The notes beneath the pieces were generated by a model. It was not told the DNA's origin. It did not search any database and saw only the letters and a list, made by a program, of their open reading frames with translations. 64,000 nt of DNA from Cephalotus follicularis (lineage: Eukaryota; Streptophyta; Magnoliopsida; Oxalidales; Cephalotaceae): contig BDDD01005829.1 in assembly GCA_001972305.1 (NCBI GenBank), positions 1-64,000 of the forward strand, given 5' to 3'. Within the stretch, counting starts at the first letter, position 1. Each line of letters starts with the position of its first letter. The position numbers and the translations under genes are program-made. Shown in pieces: positions 1,242-61,798 of the stretch.

Positions 1242-1358
1242 AACAGTCGGCTGTTCTCAAGAATAGCTGGTTGTTTACCTTGAGCAGTCGACTGTTTGTT
1301 CTTAACAGTCGGCTGGTTACTTTGAGCAGTCGGTTGTTAGGCTCAACAGTCGACTGTT
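1242..1358. repeat. Palindromic word array, AACAGTCGACTGTT type
   Basis: Five or six copies of a word close to AACAGTCGACTGTT, or its variant ACAGTCGGCTGTT, lie at 12-30 bp intervals inside the family A LTR. The consensus is its own reverse complement. Degeneration is mostly C/T or G/A change at the central CpG. Confidence 0.8.
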
Positions 1359-2269
1359 TTTCCCAGAAATCGGCAGGCAGTAGTTTTTAGTAAAATAGAG
1401 TATGCAGGTTCACAATCAAATTCCAACCAAATCAATGACATGCAATCATACAAAAATCATCCAGGCATGATATACATATCATATCTTCTAAAACATGTCA
1501 ATACCCCTACCTCAAGTGCTATCCCGAAATCAAATTGAGTTGATTTCTCTCTTTAGTGTCCAAAGCTCTTTCACTCCAACAATCCTCCAATCTCAGCAAT
1601 TAATCTATATAGTTGCATGTTTATATGCAAATACATTAAAACCAGTAAGTTATTTTGTTTATCTAATCATGATAACAACTATAATCCAATCAGTAGCTTC
1701 TAGTAATCTTCCTAAGCTTCAAACTCTTCTTTGCCGATTTACTTAATTCAATCCTCAACTCCAGGCTTTATCATGTCTTGTTCATGTTGACAGTGGATAT
1801 ATATAGCTAACATCAGTATCTTTACATCATTAACAACCTTAATATCAGTAATGAACTCGGATTGGTGAATTACTAGGAGAATCAAGCTTTAACTTTCCCT
1901 TTGAACTCCCCACATCAACATGCAATCTCCAGAATTGTCCCTCTCTCGTTAGAGTTTTCTAACATTCGACTTACTCACACAGCCTCTGTTATAAAGGAAA
2001 TTCTATTAACAATTCCGTTTTAGTCATTAACTCCCTTTTCAGCCTTTTCCTCTTTCTCTCTCTCACATGCTCATCTCTCTCGTTTTCTTCTTCACTGTTT
2101 TGCAGGTGTGCAGAGATGGAGAACACATGCAAAGCAATCAGTCTGGCATTGCCAATAGCTGGCGACAATTCCCTTACATGGCTAACACGTCCATGTACAC
2201 ATGTTAAATCAATTGCCACGGTTCTGCTCTGTTTCACACGCCATGCAAAGACACCTGTCTGTGCTAGGC

Positions 2270-2352
2270 CAATCGATTGTCGCCCTGTGACAGTCGACTA
2301 TCACTCCCTGAATCAAACCAGTCGGCCGTTACCCTATGACAGTTGGCTGTTT
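2270..2352. repeat. Palindromic word array, AACAGTCGACTGTT type (second cluster)
   Basis: Four copies (AATCGATTGT, ACAGTCGACTAT, CCAGTCGGCCGTT, ACAGTTGGCTGTT) lie near the start of the LTR as read on the - strand, that is in the U3 region. The same cluster is seen at 24326-24410, 39394-39474 and 61717-61798 in the other A LTRs. Confidence 0.8.
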
Positions 2353-2521
2353 GAGGCTGGTTTTGGTTTGTTAAGTGTATTTCACCACATTTGCATTTCA
2401 GATCAAACCCAACAATTCAATAACCACAATTTATATCATAATTGGACATTAAATCTCAATATAATGCATATTTTATTCATCATTGTGTAATATACATTAA
2501 TTGAAAATTGCGATTATTACA

Positions 2522-2534
2522 TTCCCCCCTCCTT
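2522..2534 (-). promoter_or_regulatory. Polypurine tract of the family A element
   Basis: On the - strand a purine run (AAGGAGGGGGGAA) directly precedes the LTR start TGTAATAA. This is where the plus-strand DNA primer of LTR retrotransposons lies. The same tract sits next to the LTR at 61967-61979. Confidence 0.85.
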
Positions 2535-7542: not shown

Positions 7543-8053
7543 ATTGAAATAATAAAAAGAGTTCTTGCAATATACAAAAGGGGGGGAAGGAGGGTGAATT
7601 GAATATTGACACAAATAATAACAAATAGAAAATTTTAAAGTAAAGAGAGTAGGGATAGAAAGATTCTCTGTTTTTAGGGTGGTTCGGCTAACTCTTGCCT
7701 ACATCCACTTTTCCCAAGGGAGCTCCTTGAATTTCCAGTAGCTCGAATTGATTAAGGAAGCAATTCATTACACCTCACAGTTTTTTTGTGATTGACCTCA
7801 ATCACTTGATCTTGGCCTCAAGACCTTTGGAGGATTCACTCTCCTCTTTTACAAGTTCGTAATTTGTTTACAATGTACCCTCTCAGTAGGTTTGGCTTAC
7901 AATAAAGAACAAGAGAGAATCACAAAGAAATTCAGAAAGTAAAGCTATGAAGCTTCTTGGAGAAGCTTAAGAGCACTTTGGGATTGTAGAATGTAGCTTG
8001 CTTGATTGCTTGATTACTTTGTTTCTTGAACTTTTCTGAAGTTTTGGACCCTC

Positions 8054-8063
8054 CTTTATATAG
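8054..8063 (-). promoter_or_regulatory. Likely TATA box of family B LTR 2
   Basis: CTATATAAAG on the - strand, followed by GGAGGG. It lies about 95 bp downstream of the word array in the sense of transcription. Equivalent sites are at 2795-2804, 12171-12180 and, degraded, 16703-16712. Confidence 0.65.
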
Positions 8064-8157
8064 CCAAACAATCCATGTATCCGTTGCTTAAATCATGGAG
8101 ATTTTGAATTGAAAAAATGATGATTTGCTGTAAACTCTGTTATGTAGCCGTTGGAGT

Positions 8158-8775
8158 AAAGACATCGATGTCTTTTGATAAGCGCCGATGTCTTCATCAG
8201 TTAACTAGACGTTGCTAGCATTAAGGGCGTAATTTTGTGTGATGACATCGATGTCTATAAATGGCGTCGATGTCTTTTCTGGAGTTGTGGCAAGGCTTTG
8301 AAGATATGAGCAACACATCAATCTCTTCAAAATGTGTCGATGTCTTTTCTGAAAAAATAGAAGTTATGAGAAACACATCGCTGACTTTGGCAACGGATCG
8401 ATGTCTTTTAGTTCGGAGTCGATGTCTTCGTAGGAAATACTCGATGTCTTTGTTCAGAAACAACCTGTAACTTTGAAGCATTAAACACATCGATGTCTTT
8501 GTGAAGGGATCGATGTCTTTGATGAAAACCGTCGATGTCTTCACTGAAAAAGATCGATGCCTTTGAATGAAAATAGCCTGTAACTTCATGGGATAAAGAC
8601 GTCGATGTCTTCCTGAATGGGATCGATGTCTTTGTTGAAAATTGACCTGTAACTTTTGAGGCTGAAGACGTCGATGTCTTTTGAGAATGAGATCGATGTC
8701 TTTCATGAATAACTACCTGTAACTGCTGGTGCTTTAAAGGCGTCGATGTCTTCCTTCAATGACGTCGATGTCTTT
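8158..8775. repeat. Array of ~20 palindromic words in LTR 2
   Basis: I count about twenty words with core TCGATGTCTT between 8158 and 8775. At least two are decayed (ATCAATCTCTTC near 8317, ATCGCTGACTTT near 8376), where LTR 1 and LTR 4 retain the consensus. Words tend to come in pairs about 20-45 bp apart, separated by the recurring filler 'acctgtaact'. Confidence 0.88.
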
Positions 8776-9309
8776 CATGTGAAACTGTCTTTTTGCATTT
8801 TTTTAGTTTTTTTAAGTATCTTGCACATAAAGTAAACTTGTTAAAAGCAAATATGTTATCATTAAAACTAGGATTGAGACTAAAACGTCAACAATCTCCC
8901 CTTTTTTGATGATGACAAAAATTTGCACATAAAGGATTAAAAAATGATATATGTATTGAAAATAAGATAAAACTGCAAATAAGAAAACTTATAACTATAA
9001 AGCTATCTCCCCCTTTTTTGGATAGCATCAAAAAGACATGTAATAACATATAACATAAACATATAATGCTCCCCCTTAAGAAGTCAAGATTTGAACAAAA
9101 ACATATAACAAAATATCATCAATAACAGCAATAACATTCAAAGAGCCTAAAAAATATCATACACATCATAAACACTTGTTCACATATCAACCATTTGTTC
9201 ATAGTTACACATCCAAAATATAAACTGTTTTTAAAAAAAATAAAATCAAGAATCAGAAACAGGAGGATCATCATGAGCATATTCATCTCCAGAGGTCTCC
9301 TCGCATTTG

Positions 9310-22017: not shown

Positions 22018-23299
22018 TGCTGTCACACCCCATTTTCCACAGGACAAGATATATGGAGATATCAGTTAAAATAATCTAGCATTCAACATTTAACAAAATT
22101 CATTAAACAATAGTGGAATCATTCCATTGCCGAATCATAAAAATTATCCGCACGTAGCCCATACTACGTGCTTATACAATACCAACAATTATCCTTTTAC
22201 ATATTGGAAATGTAAAATAACAACAACGAAGTATGATCGTTCATTTCAATACAAGACATAGTAAATAACAACCTTAGACAAGATAGAAGCTCTCCAATAA
22301 AGCTTCAGCAGCACTTGACCAACACCTTCGTCAATCAAAAATTGTAGGGGTTAGACTTTGTCCTCACTCGGCTAAGTCGGAATAAAGCATGAGAAAGAAT
22401 ATATAAATGTAAACATGTGTGACAGTCATTTTGAATAACATATGTAAATAAGTATTCCAATATTTATGAGCAATCATGCCGAGTGGCCATAGACAATACA
22501 ATTCACGAATACCGCACAAGGGTAAAATCAATTAATGCAGTGGTTTGGGTGTCACATGTCGCTAACTCCGAGCACCGACTACGCACCGCCTAACTATCAC
22601 CATACACTCCGAAGATGATAGATCAGGTCAATTCTGCAGGCATTAAGCGGGCAGGTAACAATCAGGATATGCATTGCAGATAAGTGTGGTGGAAGATCTA
22701 GCCAACTGCTGGCATATAGAACCACCCCGTAGCCAGTGATGTCTCCTATCACTCGACTAACGGCAATAACATAGACAAACAATTCAATCAATTTAATAGT
22801 AATATTACATATATCTATAATATGCAATATAGTAGTAGTTTCTTTTAGAAACATTTAACAATTCAGTGACCGTACCTCTCTTTTGGAGGAAACAGTATTC
22901 AATATAGTGGTGGTACCTCTCAATGGAGGAAAATCAGTAAATCATTTGACAGTAAGTTTTCATTTTGAAAAGAATAATAAGAAAATCCATATTTGTGCTT
23001 ATAGCACTAGTTGGTTCAATCATTAATATTAAGTGTAACAATAGTATTTATGAAGACTTAGTAGCTATACAATATCATTAAACAGAAGCGGAACAATCAC
23101 AATTCAAGGGTTCAAACAAGATGTTAGTATACCCTAGTCATTCTTGCACAACTCTCACAAGGAGTGCATAAGTTGTTTACTTTCTGTAATGTAACTACAT
23201 AAGGCCATGATTGACTGTTACAATCATCCCATGTGGAGGGCAGGGTAATTGCATACATTTAAAGCCTAAACAGTACCTATATCAGCAATTCATCTATTA

Positions 23300-23418
23300 A
23301 CATTCGGTTGTTCTCAAGAATATCTGGTTGTTTACCTTGAGCAGTGGACTATTTGTTCTTAACAGTCGGCTGGTTACATTGAGCAGTCGGCTGTTAAGCT
23401 CAACAGATGACTGTTTTT
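23300..23418. repeat. Palindromic word array, AACAGTCGACTGTT type
   Basis: Co-linear with 1242-1358 in the partner LTR. Comparing the two shows individual words decaying independently (for example ACAGTCGGCTGTT at 1243 against ACATTCGGTTGTT here). Confidence 0.8.
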
Positions 23419-24325
23419 CCCAGAAATCGCCAGGCAGCAGTTTTTAGTAAAACAGAGTATGCAGGTTCACAATCAAATTCCAACCAAATCAATGACATGC
23501 AATCATATAGAAATCATCCAGGCATGATATATATATCATATTTTCTAAAACATGTCAATACCCATACCTCAAATGCTATCCCGAAATCAAATTGAGTTGA
23601 TTTCTCTCTTTAGTGTCCAAAGCTCTTTCACTCCAACAATCCTCCAATCTCAGCAATTAATCTATATTGTTGCATGTTTACTTGCATATACATTAAAACC
23701 AGTAAGTTATTTTATTTATCTAATCATGATAACAACTATAATCCAATAAGTAGCTTATAGTAATCTTCCTAAGCTTCAAACTCTTCTTTGCCGAATTACT
23801 TAATTCAATCCTCAACATCAGGCTTTATCATTTCATGTTCATGTTGATAGTGGATATATATAGCTAACATCAATATGTTTACATCATTAACAACCTTAAT
23901 ATCAGTAATGAACTCAGATTGGTGACTTACCAGGAGAATCAAGCTTTAACTTTCCCTTTGAACTCCCCACATCAACATGCAATCTCCAGAAAACTCCCTC
24001 TCTCTTTAGTGTTTTCTAAAAATCGACTTACTCACACAGCCTCTGTTATAAAGGAAATTGTATTAACAATTCCATTTCAGTCATTAACTCCCTTTTCAGC
24101 CTTCTCCTCTTTCTCTCTCTCACATGCTCATCTCTCTTGTTTTCTTCTTCACTTTTTTGCAGGTGTGCAGAGATGGAGAACACATCCAAGGTAATAAGTC
24201 TGGCATTGCCAACAGCTAGTGACAATTCCCTTTCATGGCTAACACGTACATGTACACATATTAAATCAATTTCCATGCTTCTGCCCTGTTTCACACGCCA
24301 TGCACAGACACCTGTCTGAGCTAGG

Positions 24326-24410
24326 CCAGTCGTCTGTCGCCCTGTGACAGTCGACTGTCACTCCCTGAATCAAAACAGTCGGCTGTTACCCTATGACAGT
24401 CGGCTATTTG
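24326..24410. repeat. Palindromic word array, U3 cluster
   Basis: CCAGTCGTCTGTC, ACAGTCGACTGTC, ACAGTCGGCTGTT and ACAGTCGGCTATT within 85 bp, co-linear with 2270-2352. Confidence 0.8.
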
Positions 24411-24578
24411 TGGCTTGTTTTGGTTTGTTAAGTGTATTTAACCACATTTGCATTTCAAATTAAACCCAACAATTCAATAACCCCAATTTATATAGTAATT
24501 AGACATTAAATCTCAATATAATGCATATTTTATTCATCATTGTGTAATATACTTTAATTGAAAACTGCGGTTATTACA

Positions 24579-25743: not shown

Positions 25744-25950
25744 ATCTTTGTAACGCCCGAGATTTTTGCACAATGTAATATTTCAATTTTATTGAAATCT
25801 TATTATTGAATTTATGAGAATGGCATGATTTTGACTTAGATGATGCTTTCCAAAATTTAAAAGGTTAGATTTAGGAAGAGGGAATGATTGGAATATTAAA
25901 GAAATTCTAAATGATGCAATTAGAGGCAAAACAGTGTAGTTTTCGGCTAA

Positions 25951-26103
25951 ACGTGTCGACGTCCTTGGAAGACATCGACGCCTTTGGGAACAAAGGGCGC
26001 ACGTAGATGCATGTACATGCACGTCGATACAGATGAAGGCATCGACACCCTTGTACAAAAGAGGAAAAGACATCGACGACTAAAGAAGACATGGACGTCT
26101 TTG
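25951..26103. repeat. Palindromic words in the family C solo LTR, U3 start
   Basis: Words such as GTGTCGACGTCCTTGG, AAGACATCGACGCCTTT, GGCATCGACACCC, AAAGACATCGACGAC and AAGACATGGACGTCTTT in 150 bp. They fit the palindrome AAAGACGTCGACGTCTTT with substitutions. Confidence 0.8.
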
Positions 26104-26365
26104 AAAAGAATATCTGTCACGTTATGAACTGACAGAATAACGTGCAAAGGGAGAGAATGCAAGACCTTTGCAGGAACCAAATGCAATGTGTTGTGCAAGC
26201 TGGAATGTTACCAGGCATGCACAAAAACGTGTCCTTAACCTTGGCATGTGTTGACGATTAAGTCTCAATCCTTGTTTTGATGATAACATATTTGCATCTA
26301 ACTAAGTAACTTGATGTGAAAGGAATTACAAGTTGAATATCAAAGTCTAAAAACCAATCTGCAGA

Positions 26366-26896
26366 AAAAGAAGTCGACTCCTTTCCAAATAGCAACGACG
26401 CCTTTTGTACAGGATTAACTGCAAAGAAGACATCGTCCTCCCAGTTATGGCATCGATGTCCGTACCGAAAGACATCGACTACTTCCCAAAGACGTCGACT
26501 ACATTCAAGAAGACATCGACTACTTCAGTGATAACATCGACGTGTTTAGACATTTTTTGGACCAGAAGCTACTGTATGAAATTGCACTCAAAGACATCGA
26601 TCCTCAACCAAAAGACATCGACGTCCAAGTAAAAGACATCGACGCCTTAAATTAGAGATCGACGCCATTTTCATAATTTCCAGAAAAAGCATCGACACCA
26701 AGTAAAGAGATCGATGCGACATTCAAGACTTGAAGACCTGGAGTTTCCAAGAAAAGACATCGACGCCTTTCAAAAAGAAGTCAACGCCTTTTCAAGTAGA
26801 CAACACCCGGGAAAGCTGGAAAGGCTAGTTTAACCACTTATAACGGCTTCCCACTTAAAGACATCGACGCCTTTCATAAAGAAGTCGACGTCTTTG
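26366..26896. repeat. Palindromic word array AAAGACATCGACGYCTTT in copia solo LTR
   Basis: About eighteen words in 530 bp: AAAGACATCGACGCCTTT occurs almost entire near 26754 and 26858, with half-words such as AAAGACATCGACTACTT and AGAGATCGATGCG between. The left half AAAGACATC is kept best here. In family B, read on the + strand (antisense to that element), the right half is kept best, so both keep the same half relative to transcription. Confidence 0.87.
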
Positions 26897-26987
26897 TACC
26901 AGCAGAGATAAAATTCAAGAATTGTAACTCACATTTTTTAATCAAAAGCTTCCACAAATTAAGCAACGGCTATATACCTTTTCAGGC

Positions 26988-26994
26988 TATAAAA
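26988..26994 (+). promoter_or_regulatory. Likely TATA box of the copia solo LTR
   Basis: TATAAAA in the context GGCTATAAAAGGAAGC, close to the plant TATA consensus, downstream of the word array and upstream of the conserved R/U5 blocks. Confidence 0.65.
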
Positions 26995-39243: not shown

Positions 39244-39393
39244 TGTAATAACCGAAAATTCATTCTGTGTATATTGTACTCTTGATGAATAAAATATGCA
39301 CTTACTTGAATTTAATGTCCAATTATTATACGGAATTATGGTTGCTAATTTAAATTAAGCAAATGAACCTAAAATGACCAAAAACAGCCATCT

Positions 39394-39474
39394 ACAGCCG
39401 ACTGCCATAGGGGAACAGTCGACTGGCTGATGCGTGATGTGACAGTCGACTGCCTGTTAAAGACAGTCGACTGG
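39394..39474. repeat. Palindromic words, U3 cluster
   Basis: Four words in 80 bp: ACAGCCGACTGCC, ACAGTCGACTGGC, ACAGTCGACTGCC and ACAGTCGACTGGA. Confidence 0.82.
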
Positions 39475-40504
39475 AACGGTACAGAACAGGTGTCTGTACA
39501 TGCATATGAGACAGGGTTGTGGCATTGCATGAAGGACAGGTGTTAGGCGAAGTCACCAGCTGCCAGAGCATGCAAAAAGGAGTGCTTGCATGACTTCTAT
39601 CCCTCCTGCAACCTGCAGACAGAAGATGGGAAAGAGAGAAAGTGAATGTAGACAATGAACATGTGAGTGAGAGGAAAGAAAGGGCTGAGTGAATGGGAGT
39701 CTGGCAAATTCTAAGGCTCCTAAGCCTTTATATCAGCTGTTTGGCCTGAATGTGAGTGTTAGAAACACTGAAGTAGAGGAGAGTTGCTGGAAATTAATGG
39801 AGCTTGCATGTTGATGGATTAGAGCTCGAAGAAGGAGTTGAAGCTTTGATTCCTGGTAAGACTCCAATTTGTATTATGATTGAAGTTGTAGGCTGACAGT
39901 AGCACATATGGTTACCTGTATACTGTCCATAGTGTCACATTTAGAAATGGTAATGAAAGGGGAGTAAGAAAAATGAATATGAAGCTTAGAGAATCGTTGA
40001 TAACTCCAATTCGAATTATAGTTGTTGTTAGTTGTCAAGATATATGTATACTGATTCCCTTAAAAATATATATACATCTTCTGTCAACACGTTAAGATCA
40101 AGAATCTGGAATTAAAATATATGTGACACGAGTCCAAGAGTAGTTGTAAAAGAGTAATTAGGAAGCTTAATGAACTAGTGATAAACTACTGTTGGAATTG
40201 TAGTTATAATAAGAGGATTATGGATACTTACTGGTATTAATGCATGTGTCCGTAAACATGCATGATATAGATTAATTCTACTGGAATTGAAGGATTGGTT
40301 GATGGAAAAGGCTTGGAAACTCAAAGAGAGAGATCAATCCCAATTGATCTTGGGATAGCGTTTAAGGTAGGGGTAATGACATATTTTGGAAGATATGAGT
40401 ATGCATATCATGTATTGTTATTTTCTGCTTGATTGCATGCATTGATTGGTTTTGTATTAGGCATTGAATTATACAACCTGCTACTGCCTGCATTTTCTGG
40501 GCAA

Positions 40505-40620
40505 AGCAGTCGACTGTTCTTCATTACAGTCGACTACTCAACCTATCCAGTCGACTGTTAAGAGAAAACAGTCGACTACTCAATCGAAACAGCCGACTGT
40601 TCTTAAGAGCAGTCGACTGT
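40505..40620. repeat. Palindromic word array AACAGTCGACTGTT
   Basis: Six words in 115 bp, at 19-22 bp centre-to-centre, about two helical turns: GCAGTCGACTGTTC, ACAGTCGACTACTC, CCAGTCGACTGTTA, ACAGTCGACTACTC, ACAGCCGACTGTTC and GCAGTCGACTGTCC. This is the best preserved array of this type in the window. Confidence 0.87.
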
Positions 40621-41280
40621 CCTGGGTAAAAATGCTGATATAGGTCCTATTTGGGCCTCAATTTAAATGTAATTAACTTGGCCTCCATACGGATGATTAG
40701 AACAATCAATCCTGGCCTTATACACAATTACGTTACAGAAACTAAACATGTATGCACTCCTTATGAGAGTTGCACATGAATGACTATGGTATACTAAATA
40801 CCTTACTAAATTCCTTGAATTGCTACTGCCTTTTACTATTGTTGCTGTATATGCTACTGTTATATTAGTATATACTGTTTTTGGTGTTATCTAACACCAC
40901 TACCTTTTATATTTCCATGATCGAACCAACTAAGTGCTATATGCACCATTTATGATATCAAATATCATTTTCAAATGAAAGCTTATTGTTAAAAGAACTA
41001 CTGATTTTCCTCCTATGAGAGGTACCTACTGTTTTGTTCCCCAACTGGGAACCACTACTGTACTGATATCGTTTTCCTCCTATGAGTTGTACGATCAATG
41101 AATTGTTAAATGTTTCTAAAGAAAACAACTTTTATATTGCATATTATATATATATATATATGTAGTATTTTTATTGAACTGAATTGATTGAATTGATTGT
41201 CTATGCTATTGCCGTTAGTCGAGTGATAGGAGACATCACTGGCTACGGAGGTGGTCCTCTGTGTCACACCCCGCTTGCGG

Positions 41281-42197
41281 TTCCTGTTCCTCGGGGATTT
41301 CGTCGGGGAACCACTGCCCTGCCACTTGGACGATGCTGGTCTAGACTGACTCTGTGTCTGCCTGCTTTGCTGTGCTCGGGCCCTCTCGGCCCTGTCCTCA
41401 TTCAACACACTTTCCAACAACTTTGCTTTCTGGGTAACCTCCACAAAGGTACCAAGCTCCATCGCTCTGATCCGTGACCAAAGATCCGGTCGCAAGCCCC
41501 TCAAGAACCTCCGGACCTTCTTCTCCTCATCTGCAACCAAGTAGGCTGAATGTCTGGCGAGCTCAACAAACCTGGCCTGGTACTCGGCCACGGTCATCTC
41601 TCCCTGACGTAGCTCCGGGAACTCCGTCTCTCTCCGCTCACGCTCAATGCGTGGCACATTCGCTGCCAGAAACTCCTCCTGGAAACCCTCCCAGGTACCT
41701 ACAACTCTGGTATCCTCCCACTTAGCACTGACCATCTCCCACCAGTGAGTGGCCTCACCCCATAACCGGTACACGGCAAACCTCAATTTATGCCTGTCAG
41801 AACATTCCATCACCTCAAAAATCTTCTCAAGGTCCTGAAGCCATCTCTCAGCGGCGGTAGCATCCAACTCTCCCCTTAAACTGGGTGGGTTCTACCTCAT
41901 AAACTTCTCTAGGTTTCTGCCAAACCGGCTACCATCATCATGTCCACCCTGAGCTGGAGCCATCGGCTGAGCCTGAGCATACATCCTCCGCATCTCCTCC
42001 ATATTTGCGGCATTAACGGCCATCTGTTGCTGATTGGCAGCTATCTGCTGCTGGATATAGTCAGCGATGCGGTCCATGGGGTCTCTCACATTTGGCACTG
42101 CCTCTGGTGGAGCATTATGACCTCCGCCCATATTCACTTCCTCAGGAACATCCTCGTTCATAGGCCTACGCCTTCCGCGCCTTCTACGACCGTCCAT
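41281..42197 (-). pseudogene. gag: Family F gypsy Gag, C-terminus deleted
   Basis: The start is at 42197 (MDGRRRRGRRRPMNEDVPEE). The N-terminal basic and Met/Gln/Asn-rich region ends at a stop near 41892 (after 'NLEKFMR', TAG where relatives have Gln). The same frame continues at 41867 with the capsid domain: 'AERWLQDLEKIFEVMEC', 'YRLWGEATHWWEMVSAKW', 'RQGEMTVAEYQARFVELARH', 'RRFLRGLRPDLWSRI', 'FVEVTQKAKLLESV'. After 'SPTKSPRNRNR' it runs into LTR sequence, so no zinc knuckle is left. It is close to the family C Gag at 49874-51087. Confidence 0.88.
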
Positions 42198-42289
42198 AAG
42201 TTCCTATAAGAAAGATGTCATTAGTTCTCTTGAGGAAACATGTTAATTTCCAAGGATAGTATCCAAGCTAGGCATATAAATGGATATAT

Positions 42290-42301
42290 GCTCTGATACC
42301 A
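42290..42301 (-). promoter_or_regulatory. Primer binding site of the family F fragment
   Basis: TGGTATCAGAGC on the - strand, four bases after the LTR end GTGTGACA at 42306. Confidence 0.9.
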
Positions 42302-42305
42302 CTGC

Positions 42306-42780
42306 TGTCACACCCCGCTTGCATTAACAACATACAACATGGCAATTTAACAGATATTCAGCTTATATCGAGAACGATAAAATTTAAAACTTTTAAACAG
42401 ACTTCATCTTGCGGAAGCATTTGCATATATAAGCTGAAGCAAGCGAAACCATGCGTCCCATACCGCATGATTCCCACAACATCCTTATCATAAACAGGTT
42501 AAAAAGTCCACAAGCGGAGCATGATCCAAAAGTTGATACAACAACAATAGCAAAACATTAGTACATAAACCAAAGTACAACATGTTCGCTACACTGCTTA
42601 ACAAAACTTAAAGCAGAAAAACTCCGTCACTTCACAATCCAAAACAGCCATGGTCGGCAAGGTCCAAACGCAGCATCAATCTGCAACAGTAGGGGGTTAG
42701 CCTTTGTCCTCACTCGGCCAAAGTCATAAAAACAACACAATATCAATAAAACCAAAGTACGAAAGCAGCATCATGCTGCT
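42306..42780 (-). repeat. Partial 5' LTR of the family F fragment
   Basis: About 475 bp starting (in + coordinates) TGTCACACCCCGCTTGC. It holds the block 'gttagcctttgtcctcactcgg', shared with A and C LTRs, and stops where A LTR sequence resumes ('aggagttagcgacatgtgac'). Confidence 0.8.
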
Positions 42781-43341
42781 AGGAGTTAGCGACATGTGAC
42801 ACCCAAACCAAAGTATGAATTGATTGTACCCTTGTTCGGTATTCTTGCATTTGTATTGTCTATGGCCACTTGGCATGATTGCTTAAATATTGGAATACTT
42901 AAATGTTATTTTAATATAAACTGTCATACATGTTGCATTCATATATTCCTTAACATGCATTATCTTCCTACTTAGCCAAGTGAGGACAACGGCTAACCCC
43001 TACAATTTCAGATTAAGTAAGGACGTTCAGAGATTGCTGCTGAAGCTTGGAGAGATTTTATTTTTGACTTAAGGTTGTTATTTTCTGATGTTATACTGTA
43101 TTTGTAATGAACAGTTCATACCCCGTGTTACTGTTGTACTTCCTTATGAAATGATAATTTGTTGGATTGTACCTGCACGTAGTATGGGCAACATGCGGAT
43201 GACTTGTATTTTATATTCCGGCTTTTGAATGCTTCCGCTTATTTATGAATTTGTTGAATCGAATGCTGGAATATTATATTTATTTATGATATCACCATAT
43301 ATGCTTGTGTCTGTACTAGAACCGAAGGGTGGGGTGTGACA
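42781..43341 (+). repeat. Family A 5' LTR, second part
   Basis: Resumes with 'aggagttagcgacatgtgacac' and ends GGGTGGGGTGTGACA at 43341. It includes the conserved block 'ccaagtgaggacaacggctaa' near 42974 (+ strand sense). No gene is seen. Confidence 0.87.
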
Positions 43342-46853: not shown

Positions 46854-47478
46854 ATACGAAATCAATGGATGTCTACTCATACGGTTTGTCATGCTGAACA
46901 CACTCCGTATAGACATAGCATGACTACTCATACGATTTGTCGTCATTGCCACACTCTGTAAAGACATAGCTTCACAACTGATTCAATTTGTAATCACAGT
47001 CACACTCTGTATCTTCCTAGCAGCTGTTGATTACCAAGGTTTGATCATTCAAGTAATAGAGTTTTTCAATACAATCTATGGTGAGTTTCTATACCATAAA
47101 ACTGACTTTATCTTGCATATTTCATTCAGCTTTATTTCCTGCTTTGATACTTAATACTTTGCATGCTTTAATTTCTGTTGGTTTTCAATTCAGTGGTAAT
47201 AATCATCGATGCCTTGCATCAAAGCGTCAACGCTTTCAGTGCTTTTGATTATACCGTTGATGCCTTCGTTCATAGCGTCGACGCTTTCGTGCCCTTTTTC
47301 CACTATCATTTTATTTTTGCATGTTTAGGAGTAGATTTTAATAATAAACCTCGATTTTGCATGCTTCGCCTATGTTGAATAGAATAAAATTAATTTAGCT
47401 TGTTTCCTAGCGTTTGAATCGTTACTACACAATCGTGCACTTGCGGTATAAATTTAAAACATTCAAAATTCGTGAACA
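46854..47478 (+). repeat. Family D 3' LTR, second part (R/U5)
   Basis: Continuation of 33757-34640 after the family E copia. It shows 'actctgtatagacatagcatgactactcatacg'-like sub-repeats (46860-47000, two or three imperfect copies), further words (47203-47290), and the closing region 'cgtttgaatcgttactacacaatcgtgcacttgcgg', which resembles the U5 end of Athila/Tat LTRs. The LTR end is placed at ..CGTGAACA (47478). The sub-repeats are quoted here in condensed form. Confidence 0.7.
47203..47290. repeat. Palindromic words in family D R/U5
   Basis: ATCATCGATGCCTT, AAAGCGTCAACGCTTTC, TACCGTTGATGCCTT and ATAGCGTCGACGCTTTC within 88 bp, the same type as the U3 array at 33959-34255. Confidence 0.8.
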
Positions 47479-51196: not shown

Positions 51197-52325
51197 TGTT
51201 GTTACGCCCCCGTTTTTTTTTTCAAGAGGACAATATTAAAGCGGTAAGGCAATCAACACACTATAATTCAGCTCATGCGATAAAACGTATAAACAAAATC
51301 TTCAGTAGCGGAAGCAATAACATGAAATAAGCTGAATTTAAATATGCATCACGCATCCCATACTACGTGATACCCAACAAGTTAATATGAACCCAACATC
51401 ATAGTTGATCGCCCATAACGAAGCGTGATAAAACAGTACAGGGTGATAAAATAAACTTCGTTACAATAATCCAATTAACATAACCAATGTTCATTAACTT
51501 AGTACAAGAAATAAGAGAAACAATTCAGTCTTCTCCTTAAGTCTCCTTGCATGCTCCATATCATATCCACTCCATCAATCTGTTACAGTAGGGGTTGGCC
51601 TTTGTCCTCACTCGGCTAAGCGAAAAGACTCATAAATGCAGTTCAAGGTATATGATAATGAGCAACATGAATGAATGCATTATGATGCAGTACAGTATAT
51701 ATATGTCGTAGTATATATATCGCAGTATGTACATGTATAAGTATATGCATGTTCACAGTACAGGTGTAACCTCATAAGGCTACATCAACACAAGCAATAG
51801 GTATGTCCCAAAAAGGAACCAGACAAACAAGTCGTCATGACCATCGCCACCTCCTGGCCCCAACATCATGCACTCTTACTCCAATCCCTGTTTGCGAACG
51901 GTTTGGAGCAAGTCCTCCATGCAGGTTGCTTAGCACGACGGCTAAACAATCAACAGGTTATTAGCACAGCGGCCAATAATCAACAAACACAAACACCGTA
52001 TAGTACAAGTCAAGCATTGAATATAATTACTTGATCAAATATATTTGTTTAAAATATATTACTCCGTTCTCAGGTTGTGATAAGTTATAAAACTTAAAAC
52101 AATACATTTTGAATTGTGTAACCAATCCTTTAAAACATTTCTCCCTCTTTGGAAAATACTTTCCCCAATCATTTCGAAAAAATATATATTCATATGTTGA
52201 CAATATACATTTTCGCACAATAATGATTATAATAATCATACAAGCTTTTCAAAATGGTTAACACTTTTTAGAAATCAACCATAATGCAATTCACAGTAAT
52301 AATGCAAACATATGCTCAGGGGATA

Positions 52326-52834
52326 GGCATCGATGCTTATTCCCAGGGCATCGACATCTTTACCCTAAGGCGTCAACCCCTCGTACAGTTATTCCCAGGC
52401 ATTTTCATACCAAAGACGTCAATGCTTTTACAAAGACGTCGATGTCTTTATGATACCAGGAGGTATCAGTTCACAAATCTTGATTCTAGAGGGTAGAATC
52501 CGGCCCTTACTCCTTCATATGATCGAATCTCACCCTCTCAAAATGTAAGGCATGCTACTGGTTATCATAATATGTAACCAGAACATCGTTGCATGAATAA
52601 AACATGCGACTACCAGTTGCATTTCACCATCACAGTAAACACTACTGTTCTGTAATACTCAGAAAAGGCGTCGATGTCTTCCAAAGGACATCGATGTCTT
52701 TTGCATTCACACACAAAGGCATAACATTACTGTTCTACAATGCCCAGAAAAGGCATCGATGTTTTTACAGAACATCGACGCCTTTCACATCCACACACGA
52801 AGGCATCGACATCTTTATGTAGACGTCAATGCCT
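52326..52834. repeat. Palindromic words in the family C LTR, inner zone
   Basis: Twelve or so words in two groups (52326-52456, 52667-52834), including AAAGACGTCGATGTCTTT (52432-52449, a near-perfect 18-bp palindrome), AGGACATCGATGTCTTTTG, AGGCGTCGATGTCTTCC and GGCATCGACATCTTTA. Confidence 0.83.
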
Positions 52835-53576
52835 ATCCAACCCAGAACGTTTTCTCCACAGTTTTAACATACCAAGCTATTATCAAATCCATCCTTTACA
52901 CAAACCAGTTCACATATTCTTGTAATCACACATGCATGGTTACTCCGTATATCACAGTAGTCATCATAGAAGTCCAGAGATTTCAATTCACCTATTAACA
53001 TGCAATTCATCAATGGCATTCATTATCTTAAAACTCAAAATGCATGTATAAGAATCATCACTTTCCCCTACCTTGTTGTTCCAATTTTGGAACTAGAACG
53101 TCCACCTCTTTTCGTTCCAAACTGGTTACAGAAGCCTCTAGGTCCTTCCCGTTGCTGCAAGCCACCAACTCCAAGTTCCAAGCTCCAACCAAGTTCAACA
53201 ATGGTGGTTCTATGTTCTCCTTTTCCTTCTCTGTTCTTTCTCTCATAGTGTTTAACTGAGGAGGAGGGGAAAGAGGAGGTGTTTTATGTTGGCAGAGATC
53301 CTTCCCTTTCCTCTAGTTTCACATGCATCCACACCCGTGTCCTCTTCTCTCTTCTCTGTTTTTGACTCTCTTCCATTTCTCTTCTGCAGGCTGCAGGTGA
53401 AGAGATGGCACAGCCGTTGCATGCACCAGGTGAGGAACACGTTTTGGAGCATGCCTGGCAACACACCAGCATAACCAACACGTCGTATTGTGCATGGAAA
53501 GATGCAAGGATGATGCCTCAAAAGTTTCCCCATTGCATGTTATTCTGTCAGTTCGTAACGTGACTGATATTCATTT

Positions 53577-53731
53577 CAAAGACGTCGACGTCTTCCATAG
53601 ACGTCGATGTCTTTTCCCTTTTTATACGTGGGGGTCGATGCCTTTGCCTACCTCGACGTGCATGTACATGCATTCACGTACGCCTTTTCTCCCATAGGCG
53701 CCGACGTCTTTCCAAAGACATCGACGCGTTT
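53577..53731. repeat. Palindromic words in the family C LTR, U3 zone
   Basis: AAAGACGTCGACGTCTTCC, AGACGTCGATGTCTTTT, GGGTCGATGCCTTT, GGCGCCGACGTCTTTCC and AAAGACATCGACGCGTTTA in about 155 bp, near the LTR start as read on the - strand. Equivalent in place to 25951-26103 of the solo LTR. Confidence 0.83.
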
Positions 53732-53901
53732 ATCCCAAAACTGCATCATTTTGGTTTAAACACACACATTCCTCTCTCCCAAAGCAATATTTAGGGTTTG
53801 GTAAACATTATTGAGGCAAAATCTCCAACATTTTTATTAATTCAAGCATACAATTAAATCTTAGAATGAAATATTACAAAACAAAAATACCGAGCGTTAC
53901 A

Positions 53902-54630: not shown

Positions 54631-57548
54631 TGTAATACCCTGTTTGTTCATGTGCATATTTTTGGGCTTTTATTTTTGTTTTGTTATATTATTGGTCCAT
54701 TTTAAATTTTTGGGCTTTCATGTTTTGGGTATGTGATACCATCTTTGGGAATTGGTATATTGTTTGGAATGTGATTATGGACATGTAAAATTAATTGTTT
54801 TATATTATATTAGTATTTTTAAATTAGTTTTTAATATGAGAATGGTAAAATTATTTTATTGGAAACAAAATAAGCTATTTTTGTTTAAAACTTAATTATT
54901 TTCTATACTTTCTCCTCTCCCTCTCCCGTAGGACTCTCTCCCCTCCCTCACAAAATTGTTTATTTCCTTCTTTCTCTCTGACAATCCCAAATTTTAGTGC
55001 CTCTTTCCCAATTCTATTCGATTTTGGACTATTTTCCTTATCAAAACAAATTTTGATCTCCCCTAGTAGGTTTATGTATGCCTTTGCTCTTTATTTTTGT
55101 GCCGTCACCACCTCTCTTGCATAAGAACCGAACCTGCAAGTTTGGAAGCTGTTGTGTCCTTCATTGTTCATCATATCAGGTTTCCTTTCCTTTGTGTTAT
55201 GGTTTAGTAATTAGTTTTGGTGCTAATATCATTCGAATTCCATTGCATATAGGTTACTAGTGTGTTTTGGTTTTTATTTCTACAACTCTAAGTTCTATCA
55301 TGGCTTATGAACCTATAAACATGCATTAGGTAGATGTTACATACAAGTTTTGATAAAGGATAATGATAATTGACAGAAAATTTATCATATAGGCATGTAT
55401 GCAGTGAAATTGAAATTATCTCTTTAAAAGTATGATCACCCTTTGCATGATTCTTTGTGTTTAAATGAAATTGCTAGGTCACATAAGTCTTGTTTAAGTA
55501 ATTATGATCTTCTGGTGTTGTAACATTGGAGTTTTGACAGCAAAATGCATTGAACTGCCATACTTTGTCTTTCTATCGCCCGGAACAGTCGGCTATTGCG
55601 CTTTGAGTAGTCGGCTGCCTTGTAAAACAATCGGCTGTTTTGTCTTGCACAGTCGACTGGACCCCTGTCATAGTCGATTGGTTGTAGCTTTGTTTGAGTA
55701 GTCTGCTGGCTATGATATACAATCGACTACAATCCCCCAAACAGTCGACTGGATTTTGTTACAATCGGGTGGTTTTGTCCAGTAAAATTTTGGTTTCAAG
55801 TTTTGTTATTCGTTTGTTCTTCTAATGAATCAGAATGTGTTTAAATTATTGTTTAACTTCTGTTTTGATATTCGGAAGTAGTTTTTGAATCCTTATGTGT
55901 ACGATATTGTATCTTTTAGATTTTTGTGCTACGATGGACAATTAGAAATTTGTTGCTCAATTCATAAGTCATTTCTGTGATTACTTAAGGTACGGGTTTT
56001 TCGTTCCTTGATACCCTCATATTGGTTTTATTATAGTAAAAAGATAGTTTTACTTTATGAAAGATGTACGAATTCTTCGTTCTTGGCTTATTCCTTCGAT
56101 TTTACTGAAATGAAATCATTTTTGTTTTATGAATATGATTTCTTCGATTTTATGAACTTCGATATGCTCCGAATTTTGATATGTTTAGAAATAAAGTCGG
56201 TATGATATTTTGTGGAAATGAATATTTTCTGGCTTTATAATTTGATTCTGAAATGTTCACGAAATGTTATGAAATCGTCTCTTTATTTTGAAAATAAATA
56301 AGATGATTTTCCGATTATGAAAGTATAATGATTTTGATAAGGAACATGACTTCTACTATCGAAGTATGTTAAACAAACATGACTTTCGCATTAGGAAGTA
56401 TGTTAACTTTGAATAAGGATATATATAGATATTTCCCACCTATGGGGTGTACCATAGGCATGTCGTAGGCCTGGAACGGGGACATGACACTTCCGTAGCG
56501 GTGTGATTAGACTACGGCGTCTCTCTATGTGATGAATAAATCTCATGAGGTTTATTTATGGATCCCTTGTGTATGGGTCGATCCTAGGATATGTTAAGGA
56601 TTCAGATTTTGGGGATTGATTGTGTAGTGCCGTACACGTCTTTCCGGCGGAGCATGTGCGCCTTGAAAACCCCTTGCACTTATGCATATGTGTATGTACT
56701 TGGAATCTCTATGATGAGATTTCGGAATCGGATAAATCTCTGTTATATGTTTTCGATCTCTATGATGAGATTATGGAATTGGATAAGTTTTTATTTTGAA
56801 ATCTTTAATTAGGATAATGTTAAAGAAATTTTGAATATTGTTTCGGATACCGTTTTGAATTTTAGATTTGGCTTTGAAACTTGGATTATGATTTGAAACT
56901 TGAATATTGCTTGAAAATCAGATTTAGCCTTCGGATATCGAATTGAAAAATTGTCAAACGTTTTAAAATGCGAATATTGGTCTTGGAATTGATAGGACTG
57001 TTTATGTGACTGGTTTCCTTAATTTTCAGAAATAATGTTAAATTACTTTATGCATGAGTTACATTCCATTTAAATGTTCCGGTATTTTCTGTTCTTTAAA
57101 GTATTGTTTTATGTTTTATGACTCTATATCCGTACTGAGGTTTGCTCAGTCGCGTTTTGTTATCCATGCTGAAGGCATTCTGGGACAGCATCCGGGAAAT
57201 GTGTGATGAGTGATGTCCACTATGTCTGAGGATTATCTAGCAGTGTGATCTTACTATGTTTCTGTTAGGATTAGTTTATGAACAATAAGTAATTTTTGGT
57301 TTATTATCTTAGTATGTGACTTAAGGATTATGTTTAAGTTTTGACTTATATTTATGTTTTCAGTTTATGAATAAAGTTCCAGTTCATGTCTTAGATTATA
57401 AATGTTATGTTTAGACCATCACGCATTTGAATAAAATATAAACTAAAATTTTTACAAAAGGAATAAAATCGAGCATGGTTATAAGATATGTTATGTTTAG
57501 TTTCGGATTATGAAACCGTAACGACTCCCGCTGTTCAGGAGTGTTACA
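54631..57548 (+). mobile_element. Solo LTR of a further gypsy-like family (2918 bp, TSD TGGCA)
   Basis: Runs TGTAATACCC ... GAGTGTTACA, with TGGCA on both sides (54626-54630, 57549-57553). There is no coding region inside. It carries a palindromic word array of the family A type (55583-55772). Terminal 8-base ends TGTAATAC/GTGTTACA are an imperfect inverted repeat. The small open frames within it are not recognisable proteins. Confidence 0.92.
55583..55772. repeat. Palindromic word array, AACAGTCGACTGTT type, in the solo LTR
   Basis: Nine words in 190 bp, about 20 bp apart: AACAGTCGGCTATT, GTAGTCGGCTGCC, ACAATCGGCTGTTT, ACAGTCGACTGGA, ATAGTCGATTGGT, GTAGTCTGCTGGC, ACAATCGACTACA, ACAGTCGACTGGA and ACAATCGGGTGGT. 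This LTR is otherwise unlike family A. Confidence 0.85.
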
Positions 57549-57553
57549 TGGCA

Positions 57554-59209
57554 TGGATCATGTAGTAACCGCTTGGCTCTGATTTCGGCCTTCCCAGGTC
57601 TAGCCAGAAGCTGGAAAAAGAGTTGTCTTTGGGCATTGTGGGAGCTACATTTGTGTATGGGCGAGTTGGTGCAACATGGGATCGTCACACCTGTAATTGT
57701 GGGTGATCGACTCTATACTATATGTGACCATTGCAGACTTAAAATCTTGGCAAAGTGTAGGCTGATTGGAAACAAGGTTTTCGGGGATGTCCGCAGATAG
57801 TCGCAATGTGTTCATAGATTTATAGTCATCGCGGATTTACCTAGGGTTGACATTTATCCGAACCCTAGGCTACATCGGAGGCAACAATGACGAGGGATAC
57901 ACTGCATATAAACCGATGGTAGGATAGAGTACCGGTTAACCGACTGTCGACTGATAGACATGGAACTAAATTCCACGGAACTGGGGGATGATTAGGATCA
58001 TGTCGGGGGTATTTTGATAGTCGGGGACTATTAGAATGGTCATACCAGAATCATGGGATGTTTATCGTTGTACCGGATTCCAACCGGGCTTTCGGGTCCC
58101 ACCTGATTTTGGAACAGGTTGACATGTTGGGAGACATGTCATTTGTTGAGAGTTTAGCATCTGGGAGATATTACTTTGAAGAGAAAATTTTATTTGCTGG
58201 ACATATGTCACTTCTTTAGAAGTGAGTCCAAGCATCACCAAAATAAAGTGTTCCGATCAAAGGGTTGATTGTTGTACATGTAAACACATTGGGTGTTTAT
58301 TGAGAGAGATCAAGTGGGGGGTTACAAGGGCTTGGGATGCCCTAGCCAATGTTGGGATAAACCCTAGCCATTCTAATGGCAAAGGTTTGGCCAGCCTCAA
58401 TAGCCCAAATTGAAAGACCAAAGGTTGGGCTAAACCCTAGCCAGCCTAAGCATGTGTACCCATGAGTATTGGGACTTTATTGGTGGAATTGGATGCTTGG
58501 ATATTAAAATGTAGAGGGAGCACATCAAGGAAAGAGTTAGAGACTTAGGTGATGGTTCCTAAAACTTCTTTTTTTCGTTGTTGGTTGATAATGGTTTCGG
58601 GTTCAAGCAGGGTTTCCAACCTTAGCCAAACCCTAGATGTTACATATGGGAACATTTACATACCATTAGGGGTTGGCCTTGGGAAGGTTTTAGGTTTGGT
58701 GGCATTAGACTAGGGTTTTGGTGTGCTAACCCTAGCTTAATCATATGTGAACCGAAATTAGGGTTTTGGTAACCTTAGTTCAACCCACCCCTTTAATGTA
58801 TGCTTGGATATTAATGTAGTTCAATTGGATGTTTAATTAGTGATCCTTGGTTTGATTGGGACAATAATGGACCTAGATTTTAGGGTGACCCACTGCTTGG
58901 GGACTAAATGGACTAAAATTTTTAAAATTGTAACCCTAAAGTCCCTATGCCCAAAATTGGACCAATCCGATTTTGAGCCTTACAAAGAGGGAGAGAATGT
59001 CGTGTAAAAATTTCCTTGCACACACAAAGGACTCTTAGTCTTACTCTCTATTTTCCGTTAATGTCGCAGGGTCAAAACAAGGGAGACATAAAGGACATGA
59101 GCCCATACTTTGTTTCATTCTCTTATATGCCTTGCACCATGCTTTGACAAGATTCTTGTCCCACAAGAGGACAAACTATAGGCGGCCAGGAGACATCAAA
59201 GGGTCGACC
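57554..59209. other. Non-coding background, partly LTR-like
   Basis: No recognisable protein. A 75-codon frame (57573-57800) begins inside background and has no known motif. From about 58320 the strand is rich in 'aaccctagcc' variants. The part 58820-58930 is similar to the reverse complement of 48930-49030, suggesting an LTR of the same non-coding family in the opposite orientation. The last five bases CGACC (59205-59209) are the expected TSD of the A element that follows. Confidence 0.5.
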
Positions 59210-60537
59210 TGTCACACCCCGTTTTCGATCACGTTAGTAGACAAGAATATATGGTGATATCAGAAATAAGCATAATAATATTCCAGCACAATTCATAAAT
59301 AAATTTGCGGAAGCATTCGATAAGCCGAAATATAGATACAAGTCATCCGCACGCAGCCCATACTACGTGCAGGCATAATCCAACAATTATCCTTACATAA
59401 GGAAAATACAACAATAACGGGGTATGAACCGTTCGATACGAAAATACAGTACATCATAACAAAATAACAACCTTAAGACGACAAATAGAAGCTCTCCAAG
59501 CTTCAATAGCAAACTTCGATCGTCTTCGCCTAATCTGAAATTGTAGGGGTTAGCCGTTGTCCTCACTTGGCTAAGTAGGAAGATAATGCATGCTAAGAAA
59601 TATGTGAATGCAACATGTATGACAGTTTATATTTAAAATAACATTTAAATGTGCCAATATATAAGCAATCATGCCAAGTGGCCATAAACAATACATATGC
59701 AAGAATACCGCACAAGGGTACAATCAATTCATCCTGGTTTGGGTGTCACATGTTGCTAACTCCTAGCACCAACTATGCACAACCTAACTATCACCCTACA
59801 CTCCGAAGTTGATAGATAGGGTAACATTTACTACCGGCGTTGGCGGGTAGTTTAACAAATAAGATATGCAATGCAGATAAGTTTGGGAGATACTCTGGCC
59901 AACTCCTGGCACCCAGGATCCCTACCGTAGTCGGTGACCTCAGCCATCACTCGTCTACCGGCAATAAGCATAGACAAACAATTCAAGCATTTCAATAATA
60001 ATATTACATATATCAATAATATGCAATATAAAAGTTGTTTTCTTTCGAAACATATAACAATTCATTTATCGTACATCTCATAGGAGGGAAACGATGTCAA
60101 TACAATAATGGTTCTCGATTTCGAGAACAAACAAGTAGTACCTCTCATAGGAGGAAAATCAATAATTTATTTAAACAATGGTTTTCACTTGAAAATGATA
60201 GTTGATGTCATAATTTGGGTACATAGCCCATAGTTGGTTTAAATCATTGAAACATAAGTGGTAGTGGTGTTGAATAGCACCAAAACAGTATATACTAATA
60301 TAAGGTAGCATATACAGTAACATCATTACAATACAGTAGCAATGCAAGGATTCACAAAGAATAGCATTTCATAGTCATTCATATGCAACTCTCACAAGGA
60401 GTGCGTACATTGTTTAGTTTTGGAATGTAATTATATATGAGGCCAGGATTGACTGTTCTAATCATCCACATGGAGGCCAAGATCATTACATTCAAATTGA
60501 GGTCCAAACAGACCTATATTAGCAATTTTTACCCAGG

Positions 60538-60653
60538 ACAGTCAGCTGCCCTCAAGAGTAGTTGGCTGCTTCAGTTGAGTAGTCGACTGCTTTGGCTTAA
60601 CAGACGACTGGATAGGGTTGAGCAGTCGACTGCCATGAAGAACAGTTGACTGC
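60538..60653. repeat. Palindromic word array, inner zone
   Basis: Six words in 115 bp with the same spacing as 40505-40620: ACAGTCAGCTGCC, GTAGTTGGCTGCT, GTAGTCGACTGCT, ACAGACGACTGGA, GCAGTCGACTGCC and ACAGTTGACTGCT. Confidence 0.83.
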
Positions 60654-61716
60654 TTCTGCCCAGAATGTGCAGGCAGTAGCAGTTTGCAATTTTCAATCTC
60701 TAATACAAATCCAATCAAACATGCAACAATGTAGAAAAATAAACATACATGATATGCATGCTCATATCTTCCAAAACATATCGTTACCCCTACCTTAATA
60801 GCTTATCCCAAGATCAATTGAAATGATCTTTCTCTTTGAGTTTCCAAGCTTTTCACCAACAAGCTTCCAAATCCAGTAGAGTATAATCTAACAATGCATG
60901 CATGTTTACAGGCACATGCATTAGTACCAGTAGGTTTCTAATTATCAGTTACAAATACTACTTCAACAAAACCATATTACCAAATCCTTAAGTCTTAACT
61001 TCCATTTTACAACTTCCTCTTTTAACTCCTTGTCAACTATCATTTCATTTCGGATTCCTTGATGTGGACAGAAGGTTTTTATATATACTTAAGAGAATCC
61101 ATGTACATTTCTTAACAACTTACAACATCTATAATTCGAATTAGAGTTGTTAAATCCTCTAAGCTTCATGTCCATTTTCTTACTTTCTTTCATACAATTT
61201 CAATTCCATTCAAGAACTGTTAATCCCTTACCATGTTAACAGAATATAACAAACCTTCCAAGTTACATCATTAACAGTACTACTTAAGCAGGAAGCTCGA
61301 ATTTGGAAACTTACCAGGAGAAATCCAAAGCTTCCAAGTTCCCTTTTGCACTCCAAGCTTTCACATGCATCCACTTACCAACAATTCTCCAGCAATTCCC
61401 TCTTCTCTCAGTGTTTTTCCAACACACATTCAGCTCCTGGACAGCTGATATAAAGATCTGGAGCTTAGAATTCGCCAGGATCAATTACTCAGTTTCTCTC
61501 ATTTCTTCTCTCTCTCACATGCACCTCTTTTCTTACCCTTTTCTCTTCTATTTTGCAGGTTGCAGCTCTCTAATTCTTGCAGAGGGAATAGAGGACATGC
61601 ATGGCACTCCACTTGCATGTTATGGCGGCTAGTGACACGCATTTTGCATGCATGCCACATTTGGGACACTTGGCATCACTGTCTCTGCGTCTGCCATGCG
61701 CCTATTCTGCACCATT

Positions 61717-61798
61717 CCAGTCGACTGTCTTTAACAGGCAGTCGACTGCCCACTCTCGCCTCAGACAGTCGACTGTTCCCCTGTGACAGTCGACTGTC
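61717..61798. repeat. Palindromic word array, U3 cluster
   Basis: CCAGTCGACTGTC, GCAGTCGACTGCC, ACAGTCGACTGTT and ACAGTCGACTGTC: four near-perfect words in 82 bp. Confidence 0.85.

Follow-up and report, generated by a model that had tools for sequence, protein, structure and literature searches.

Repeated motifs (RM) have been described in 13 Sirevirus elements, where they are palindromic, occur in 8-32 copies, constitute CpG islands and are located upstream of the TATA box; 12 of the 13 printed motifs display a CGG-CCG core, Tnd-1 being the exception, and the motifs of Vitis (CGGTCGACCG) and of Tnd-1 itself (ACAATCGATTGT) are centred on TCGA (accessible text of PMC2829016). From a comparison with other copia elements, these motifs were regarded in 2010 as specific to Sireviruses, and according to the same portion of that report a common binding factor was not found (PMC2829016). 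In maize, the Sirevirus palindrome likewise ranks first among the motifs of structured Helitron regions (PMC10760457, consulted in part). Partial texts of other reports describe tandem repeats of Retand situated between pol and the long terminal repeat (LTR) (PMC11963269) and a slight preference for palindromes at insertion sites (PMC6911290), and palindromes go unmentioned in the accessible text of PMC11656987. In this work, we analysed a stretch of 64,000 nucleotides from Cephalotus follicularis (contig BDDD01005829.1, positions 1 to 64,000; hereafter the window), which is plant DNA constituted mostly by nested LTR retrotransposons, and in which LTRs of both copia and gypsy elements carry arrays of short words, most of them palindromic and centred on TCGA. 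All statistics presented here were drawn from this single 64-kb window. The arrays are a real feature; they extend the palindromic array of Sireviruses into gypsy elements, and they add a pitch of two helical turns between neighbouring words.

The element families are designated here by letters: B, E and the solo LTR S at 26249 are copia elements, all of them Sirevirus-like; A, C and D are gypsy elements; and F is a solo-LTR-like sequence at 54631, whose lineage is not assigned. The words, which were found where a previous sequence-only reading of this stretch had located them, fall into two nearly exclusive classes and are almost confined to LTRs. Class I (AAAGRCRTCGAYGYCTTT) is displayed by the copia LTRs B and S and by gypsy C, with weaker forms in D and E, and class II (AACAGTCGACTGTT) by A and F. 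At a match threshold for which shuffled sequences yield about 2 matches per class per window, 116 of the 125 class I matches were located within the LTRs of B, S, C, D and E, the others corresponding to 2 in the B internal regions, 1 in the A3 LTR, 2 at 46.66-48.85 kb and, by difference, 4 in the second copy of the 27183-29530 duplication; 36 of the 39 class II matches were in A and F, with one each in the E LTR, the A3 internal region and 57.5-59.2 kb. The words are far commoner than in shuffled controls: 14-bp palindromes centred on TCGA with at most one mispair were found 50 times, against a mean of 2.7 in 10 shuffles, and palindromes of every centre 195 times against 111.2.

The same words emerged when LTR-like segments were considered separately. 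The most enriched 8-mer was the GTCGAC/TCGACG/GTCGACTG word or a near variant of it in 11 of 12 segments, including E with the near variant CGTTGACG, and in the twelfth (46862-48834) it was CTCTCTCT. Motif discovery by expectation-maximization (EM) in the same 12 segments returned a symmetric motif with sharp borders and flat flanks in eight of them, resembling AAAGRCRTCGAYGYCTTT in B2, S, C1 and C2, AAA.CGTCGACGCTTT in D, and AACAGTCGACTGTT in A3, A4 and F; the per-segment search drifted in A1, A2 and 46862-48834, and a weak shifted motif was obtained for E. For D, the exact word AAAGCGTCGACGCTTT that had been proposed does not occur there or anywhere in the window, and its one-mismatch matches (47221 and 47272) lie outside this LTR, the D array being described instead by a degenerate consensus. 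CpG decay of one ancestral word was considered as a source of the variants; it suits the ACG/ACA and CGT/TGT variants and fails for E, whose core is one-sided, 10 to 0.

The sharing of class I between superfamilies was assessed with matrices trained on one family and applied to others. A matrix trained on copia B2 and S recovered 5, 5 and 5 sites in the three pieces of the gypsy C1 LTR and 15 in C2 (30 in total), with 0.10-0.25 expected in each from shuffles; elsewhere it found 2 sites in D and 4 in E, and 0, 0, 1 and 0 in A1, A3, A4 and F. Reciprocally, the gypsy C matrix found 19 sites in B2, 17 in S, 4 in D and 6 in E. For class II, the A3 matrix identified 10 sites in A4 and 8 in F, as well as 0-2 in class I LTRs, and a matrix built from only 4 F sites identified 9-12 in the A LTRs against 1.4-2.2 in shuffles. 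This test is not fully independent, since the training sites were chosen by a consensus built from all families. After masking of the words, no BLAST match remained between B2 or S and C at E 1e-3, which rules out flank homology as the source of the class I word common to B/S and C. Conversely, the A and C LTRs share a segment of 44-62 bp at 84-90% identity, yet their words are unlike; each carries two arrays at similar offsets (172-247 and 1165-1385 in A2-A4; 180-345 and 1075-1701 in C). Part of this segment was also recovered by self-BLAST, in which A2 22269-22377 matches C1 31203-31308 at 77%. Given that gypsy C and copia B/S carry the same word and the related A and C LTRs different ones, the word does not follow element relatedness. 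The description of all these LTRs as unrelated was too strong, as the three copia LTRs (B, S and E) are Sirevirus-like and the shared segment connects A with C; B/S versus C is nevertheless a firm cross-superfamily pair, D being weaker.

The sequence-only reading left room for exchange or convergence between families, and either would fit, because the word does not follow element relatedness. Transfer of the class I array between copia and gypsy by template switching or recombination, as opposed to convergence, is compatible with the functional explanations considered below, and we give it a little under an even chance. The sense-strand consensus of S and C is identical, an imperfect palindrome (AAAGACATCGACGYCTTT) with the same departure from symmetry, which hints at a common origin or at a polar binder, and a precedent is offered by the gypsy LTR of Quinta, with a 162-bp motif that has a homologue in the copia LTR of Gisela (PMC11302176, accessible text). 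Against transfer, the words were all that was common after masking, and their orientation is mixed in C2, with 9 of 15 forward by the B2 and S matrix. The array layout is common to C1 and C2, and therefore any transfer would be older than their split.

Neighbouring words are spaced with a marked regularity. Among 97 gaps, 55 measured 19-22 bp, whereas 5000 random placements gave 17.3 ± 3.4 such gaps (maximum 30). The count took in one B copy out of four and the first copy only of the C1/S duplication, and omitted A2; the gaps are not all independent, since C1 and C2, as well as A1, A3 and A4, were all included. By family, such gaps amounted to 14/19 in A, 18/29 in B2 and S, 12/26 in C and 8/15 in E (p 0.005, with cores called by regular expression). 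The pitch is equal for 14-bp and 18-bp words, the spacers between neighbours are dissimilar, and the minimum gap is 19 bp; thus the loose spacing of 15-50 bp described earlier gives way to one in which no gap is shorter than 19 bp and 19-22 bp is dominant.

The nearest word to the TATA-like box was found at 104 bp in B2, 102 bp in S and 103 bp in D, and in E at 125 bp or 151 bp, depending on whether words were called by regular expression or by matrix matches; these values correct the 90-125 bp given previously. Furthermore, the CpG observed/expected ratio was 0.70-1.77 in arrays versus 0.23-0.59 in the remainder of eight LTRs.

Identity inside and outside the words was compared by Fisher tests, with words marked in both sequences of a pair. 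Between lineages, words were better kept in all five pairs (p 0.0004-0.019): 81.4 vs 70.5% in A1/A3, 78.6 vs 68.2% in A1/A4, 87.1 vs 75.9% in A3/A4, 65.0 vs 54.3% in C1/C2 and 72.6 vs 65.2% in B2/S. A significant excess was found in none of the four pairs that diverged after insertion or duplication; words were lower in A1/A2 (89.3 vs 94.5%, p 0.033), and the values were 96.6 vs 97.4% in B1/B2, 95.4 vs 96.2% in B2/B4 and 96.3 vs 95.2% in B1/B4 (p about 0.5). The retention of CpG in both sequences, words versus outside, was 8/11 vs 7/36 in A1/A3, 6/10 vs 10/46 in A1/A4, 7/10 vs 14/54 in A3/A4, 16/43 vs 10/85 in C1/C2 and 18/31 vs 5/17 in B2/S (p 0.075), and 5/9 vs 21/35 in the post-insertion pair A1/A2. 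These comparisons are suggestive, not proof, that active lineages keep the words and that inserted copies lose the constraint.

Short repeated activator sites are present in U3 (the unique 3′ region) of the LTRs of Tnt1, Tto1 and HTLV-1, which provide a likeness of organization with different sequences. We lean towards the interpretation that the arrays are putative sites for dimeric host DNA-binding proteins and would act as cis-regulatory modules of the LTRs, located in U3 for B, S, D and E, that help transcription or prevent silencing. Each word would be bound by a host protein as a dimer; neighbouring sites are two helical turns (about 21 bp) apart, and therefore successive dimers could line up along the same side of the helix, with cooperative binding over an array whose last word precedes the TATA-like box by about 103 bp in B, S and D. 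The bound array may aid transcription of the element or keep silencing off. The word of a family would set which of several proteins serves it and could be changed, as suggested by gypsy A and C, with different words at similar LTR places, and by gypsy C, with the word of copia B/S. The clustered binding sites proposed in the sequence-only reading are consistent with the symmetric motifs and their sharp borders, the pitch, the lineage conservation, the location ahead of a TATA-like box that B, S, D and E have in common, and the independent variation of the two arms: complementary pairs within words were 355/531 against 358 ± 6 with permuted right arms in 59 class I sites, 148/196 against 147 ± 3 in 28 class II sites, and 105 against 108 ± 2 in B2 alone, with no covariation. 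Among the binder sites considered, which we take to be GACGTC for bZIP, TGTC for ARF, AAC for MYB and TTGAC for the W-box, none seemed to fit both classes.

The earlier reading had admitted either a regulator or a silencing factor. Because element lineages keep the words, a silencing factor is less likely than an activator, and the binder is probably the latter. It is accordingly unlikely, in our estimate, that a host silencing factor docks on the arrays and recruits DNA methylation, in the manner of REM and Pol IV in Arabidopsis. There, the sites recognized by REM-GDE1 stand in tandem, two or three together and separated by a 1-nt spacer, and CLSY3/4-Pol IV is recruited by these proteins (PMC12270911, accessible text), and the arrays described here are indeed CpG-rich for their LTRs; however, the better preservation of words than flanks between lineages is unexpected for purely harmful sites, and REM sites, in the same text, are other sequences arranged as direct repeats rather than palindromes. 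Slightly less likely still are RNA or DNA hairpins formed by the palindromes that would feed small-RNA production, as proposed for maize Sireviruses, in which a small-RNA excess lies over palindromic clusters (PMC10760457, accessible text, citing Bousios 2016). Predicted RNA folds of seven segments were strong in A3 (z -6.95) and C2 (-3.53) and moderate in B2 (-2.43) and E (-2.06), but weak in S (-0.91, -1.79) and D (-1.59), and pairing within words is no higher than with right arms permuted. Neutral tandem duplication of a chance palindrome, the pitch of 21 bp being the copying unit, is very improbable, for although several arrays contain repeat units of about 20-22 bp according to Tandem Repeats Finder, and those in B are of 70-112 bp, neighbouring spacers are dissimilar, the pitch is identical with two word classes, and words are kept better than flanks between lineages.

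Several observations weigh against the preferred interpretation of dimer-bound control modules. The words are palindromic in B, S, C, A and F and loosely so in D, but not in E, where self-complementarity had also been claimed and the + strand holds GTTGA 10 times, GTTAA 4 times and TCAAC never. The pitch taken alone was not significant in D (1/3), F (1/3) or the 47-kb cluster (1/2), and longer gaps of 31 and 40-42 bp are accompanied by many of 46-51 bp, out of helical phase; consequently, helical phasing of whole arrays beyond the first neighbour is not established. No promoter could be placed for the A and C arrays, which are thus untied to one. Regarding conservation, CpG retention leans to words in the B pairs as well (25/28 vs 7/9, 23/28 vs 7/11 and 25/29 vs 6/10; p 0.17-0.58), and the post-insertion contrast is therefore clear only in A1/A2, on few CpGs. 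A shifted-mask control gave a weaker result, as the observed word identity was reached by 3-9% of shifts in the A lineages, 9-15% in B2/S, 8% from C1 to C2 and none from C2 to C1. Finally, the pairs are non-independent, C1 and C2 align poorly (54% outside words), and the words themselves can drive the alignment of arrays.

Beyond this window, we advance tentatively, and with rather more doubt than confidence, that a swappable LTR control module may be general in plants, consisting of rows of dimer sites at two-turn pitch, in which the word could be replaced with place and pitch constant, so that a single host regulator would govern both copia and gypsy elements within a genome. If gypsy elements do use the same word and pitch, the arrays would point to a common host retrotransposon regulator, for which one 18-bp word at 21-bp pitch would be a ready bait; if the interpretation holds, LTR control modules would move or converge between superfamilies, and CpG-rich arrays would stay so through selection during element replication.

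The coordinates of the LTRs, arrays and TATA-like boxes are compiled in Table 1.

Table 1. LTRs with word arrays and associated features in the 64-kb window.
Feature	Position	Strand	Words and basis
B2 LTR, Sirevirus-like copia	7545..8893	-	class I array ~8157-8775, 17 words; self-BLAST, LTR ends, junction, words
Other B LTR copies	2774-3634 and 16528-17543 (both cut short), 11662-13010	-	self-BLAST
S solo LTR, B homologue	26249..27531	+	class I array ~26366-26895; BLAST to B2, words
E LTR, Sirevirus-like copia	34645..35946 (limits approximate)	-	oriented TTGA-core words ~35330-35810; polypurine tract (PPT) copies, words
C1 LTR part 1 (gypsy C)	25749..26248	+	class I array 25948-26102; LTR resumes past S
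C1 LTR part 2	27532..28354	+	class I words 28170-28287, repeated in tandem copy ending 29530
C1 LTR part 3	29531..31630 (right end approximate)	+	class I words 29672-29922
C2 LTR (gypsy C)	51198..53901	-	class I arrays 53577-53731 and ~52250-52836; LTR ends, primer-binding site (PBS), gag Pfam, words
D LTR (gypsy)	33755..34644 (limits inferred, the window holding no second LTR to pair with it)	+	degenerate class I words 33958-34256
A1 LTR, cut short; 3' LTR of the element with A2 as 5' LTR	240..2521	-	class II words 1241-1358, 2288-2351
A2 LTR	22020..24572	-	class II words 23298-23415, 24345-24408; LTR ends, PBS, words
A3 LTR, split by insert 41267-42773	39246..43341	+	class II words 39413-39475, 40504-40621
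A4 LTR	59213..61968	-	class II words 60577-60654, 61715-61798
F class II words, 54631 solo-LTR-like sequence	55583..55753	+	segment analysis, EM motif, words
Small class I-like cluster, stretch without element assignment	47198..47288	+	words
TATA-like boxes	S 26988..26994, B2 8062, D 34350, E 35214 (starts)	S +, B2 -, D +, E -	pattern match only

Families were mapped by self-BLAST, PBS matches (7 exact), LTR ends and Pfam. A is a gypsy element by its pol in Pfam, with LTRs of about 2.6 kb, and appears chromovirus-like, the chromodomain match being weak (Chromo E 3.2e-4, 21.0 bits versus a Pfam curated cut-off of 25.1); the name Del/Tekay for it is our assumption. The gypsy assignment of C follows from the C2 LTR, succeeded by a PBS (51185-51196) and gag (Retrotrans_gag 1.3e-21, Ty3_capsid 1.5e-13), and that of D from Pfam matches to RNase H and the integrase zinc domain only, with no Pfam family matched in 31958-32350; the OTA label for D comes from the sequence-only reading and is putative. 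S was assigned to B by homology to the B2 LTR (79% over 296 bp, 84% over 74 bp). Sirevirus hallmarks comprise the junction, a AGGGGGAG-type tract and a C-rich LTR end (PMC2829016, accessible text). B2 and B3 show the 5' LTR/PBS junction CA-ATTGG-TATCAGAGC, and the 5' end of E falls outside the window; the E linker (35947-36275) has 4 AGGGGGAG tracts, the last one 10 bp from the 3' LTR, and in B the last tract is AAGGGGAG, with 1, 2 and 0 upstream copies of AGGGGGAG in the three linkers. C runs lie close to the LTR ends of B, S and E. A search of the protein collection with the pol piece of E gave 2,792 relatives, and among the 120 matches listed the named organisms are flowering plants. The open reading frame in the B array had no protein match at E 1; 10 viral contigs contained one word match apiece, and no related pol was found in viral contigs for two queries.

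The window also displays several rearrangements. By self-BLAST, four LTRs and three internal regions make up B (2774-17543), arranged in tandem with LTRs in common and nested in the pol of A; within it, segments 5538-9657 and 9655-13774 show 99.4% identity across 4,120 bp. Region 27183-29530 is a tandem doubling of a 1,177-bp unit that includes the end of the S solo LTR and C1 flank, at 99.7% identity. The insert inside the A3 LTR (41267-42773) contains gypsy gag together with an exactly matching PBS. Next to the small word cluster, 46661-46860 corresponds to part of the beginning of an E-like LTR, matching 35773-35948 at 93% over 176 bp.

The sequence-only reading knew of no description of these words. 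TCGA-centred Sirevirus motifs upstream of TATA are in fact printed in the accessible text of PMC2829016; for the sharing with gypsy, the two-turn pitch and these particular LTR words, no report was found in searches of a library of open papers, which covered the listings and the papers cited here, subscription papers being outside the search. Compared with other known systems, the LTRs of the chromovirus Del, in the accessible text of PMC4029996, resemble those described here in a CpG-rich stretch in their 5' half, and unlike here no palindromic word appears in that text and the eudicot Del LTRs are without an island. The Arabidopsis REM-GDE1 sites (PMC12270911, consulted in part) resemble our arrays in being short, exactly spaced repeats read by plant DNA-binding proteins, and differ in their number and direct orientation, their sequences and spacer, and their location at loci of small interfering RNAs. 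Similar to the palindromic clusters of maize Sireviruses, in the accessible text of PMC10760457, the arrays occupy the regulatory part of the LTR and their word is common to separate element classes; unlike them, they consist of other words, and the account given there is one of structure and small RNA, whereas the arms here show no covariation. The closest relatives are the Sirevirus RM (PMC2829016, accessible text), with which the arrays of B, S and E agree in being multi-copy and CpG-rich and in lying a short distance before TATA within the upstream half of the LTR. In contrast to those motifs, the cores here are TCGA or TTGA and not CGG-CCG, a pitch of 19-22 bp stands where none is stated in that text, and non-Sirevirus elements are carriers, namely gypsy C, recognized by its gag, with the class I word of B/S, and gypsy A, recognized by its pol, with another.

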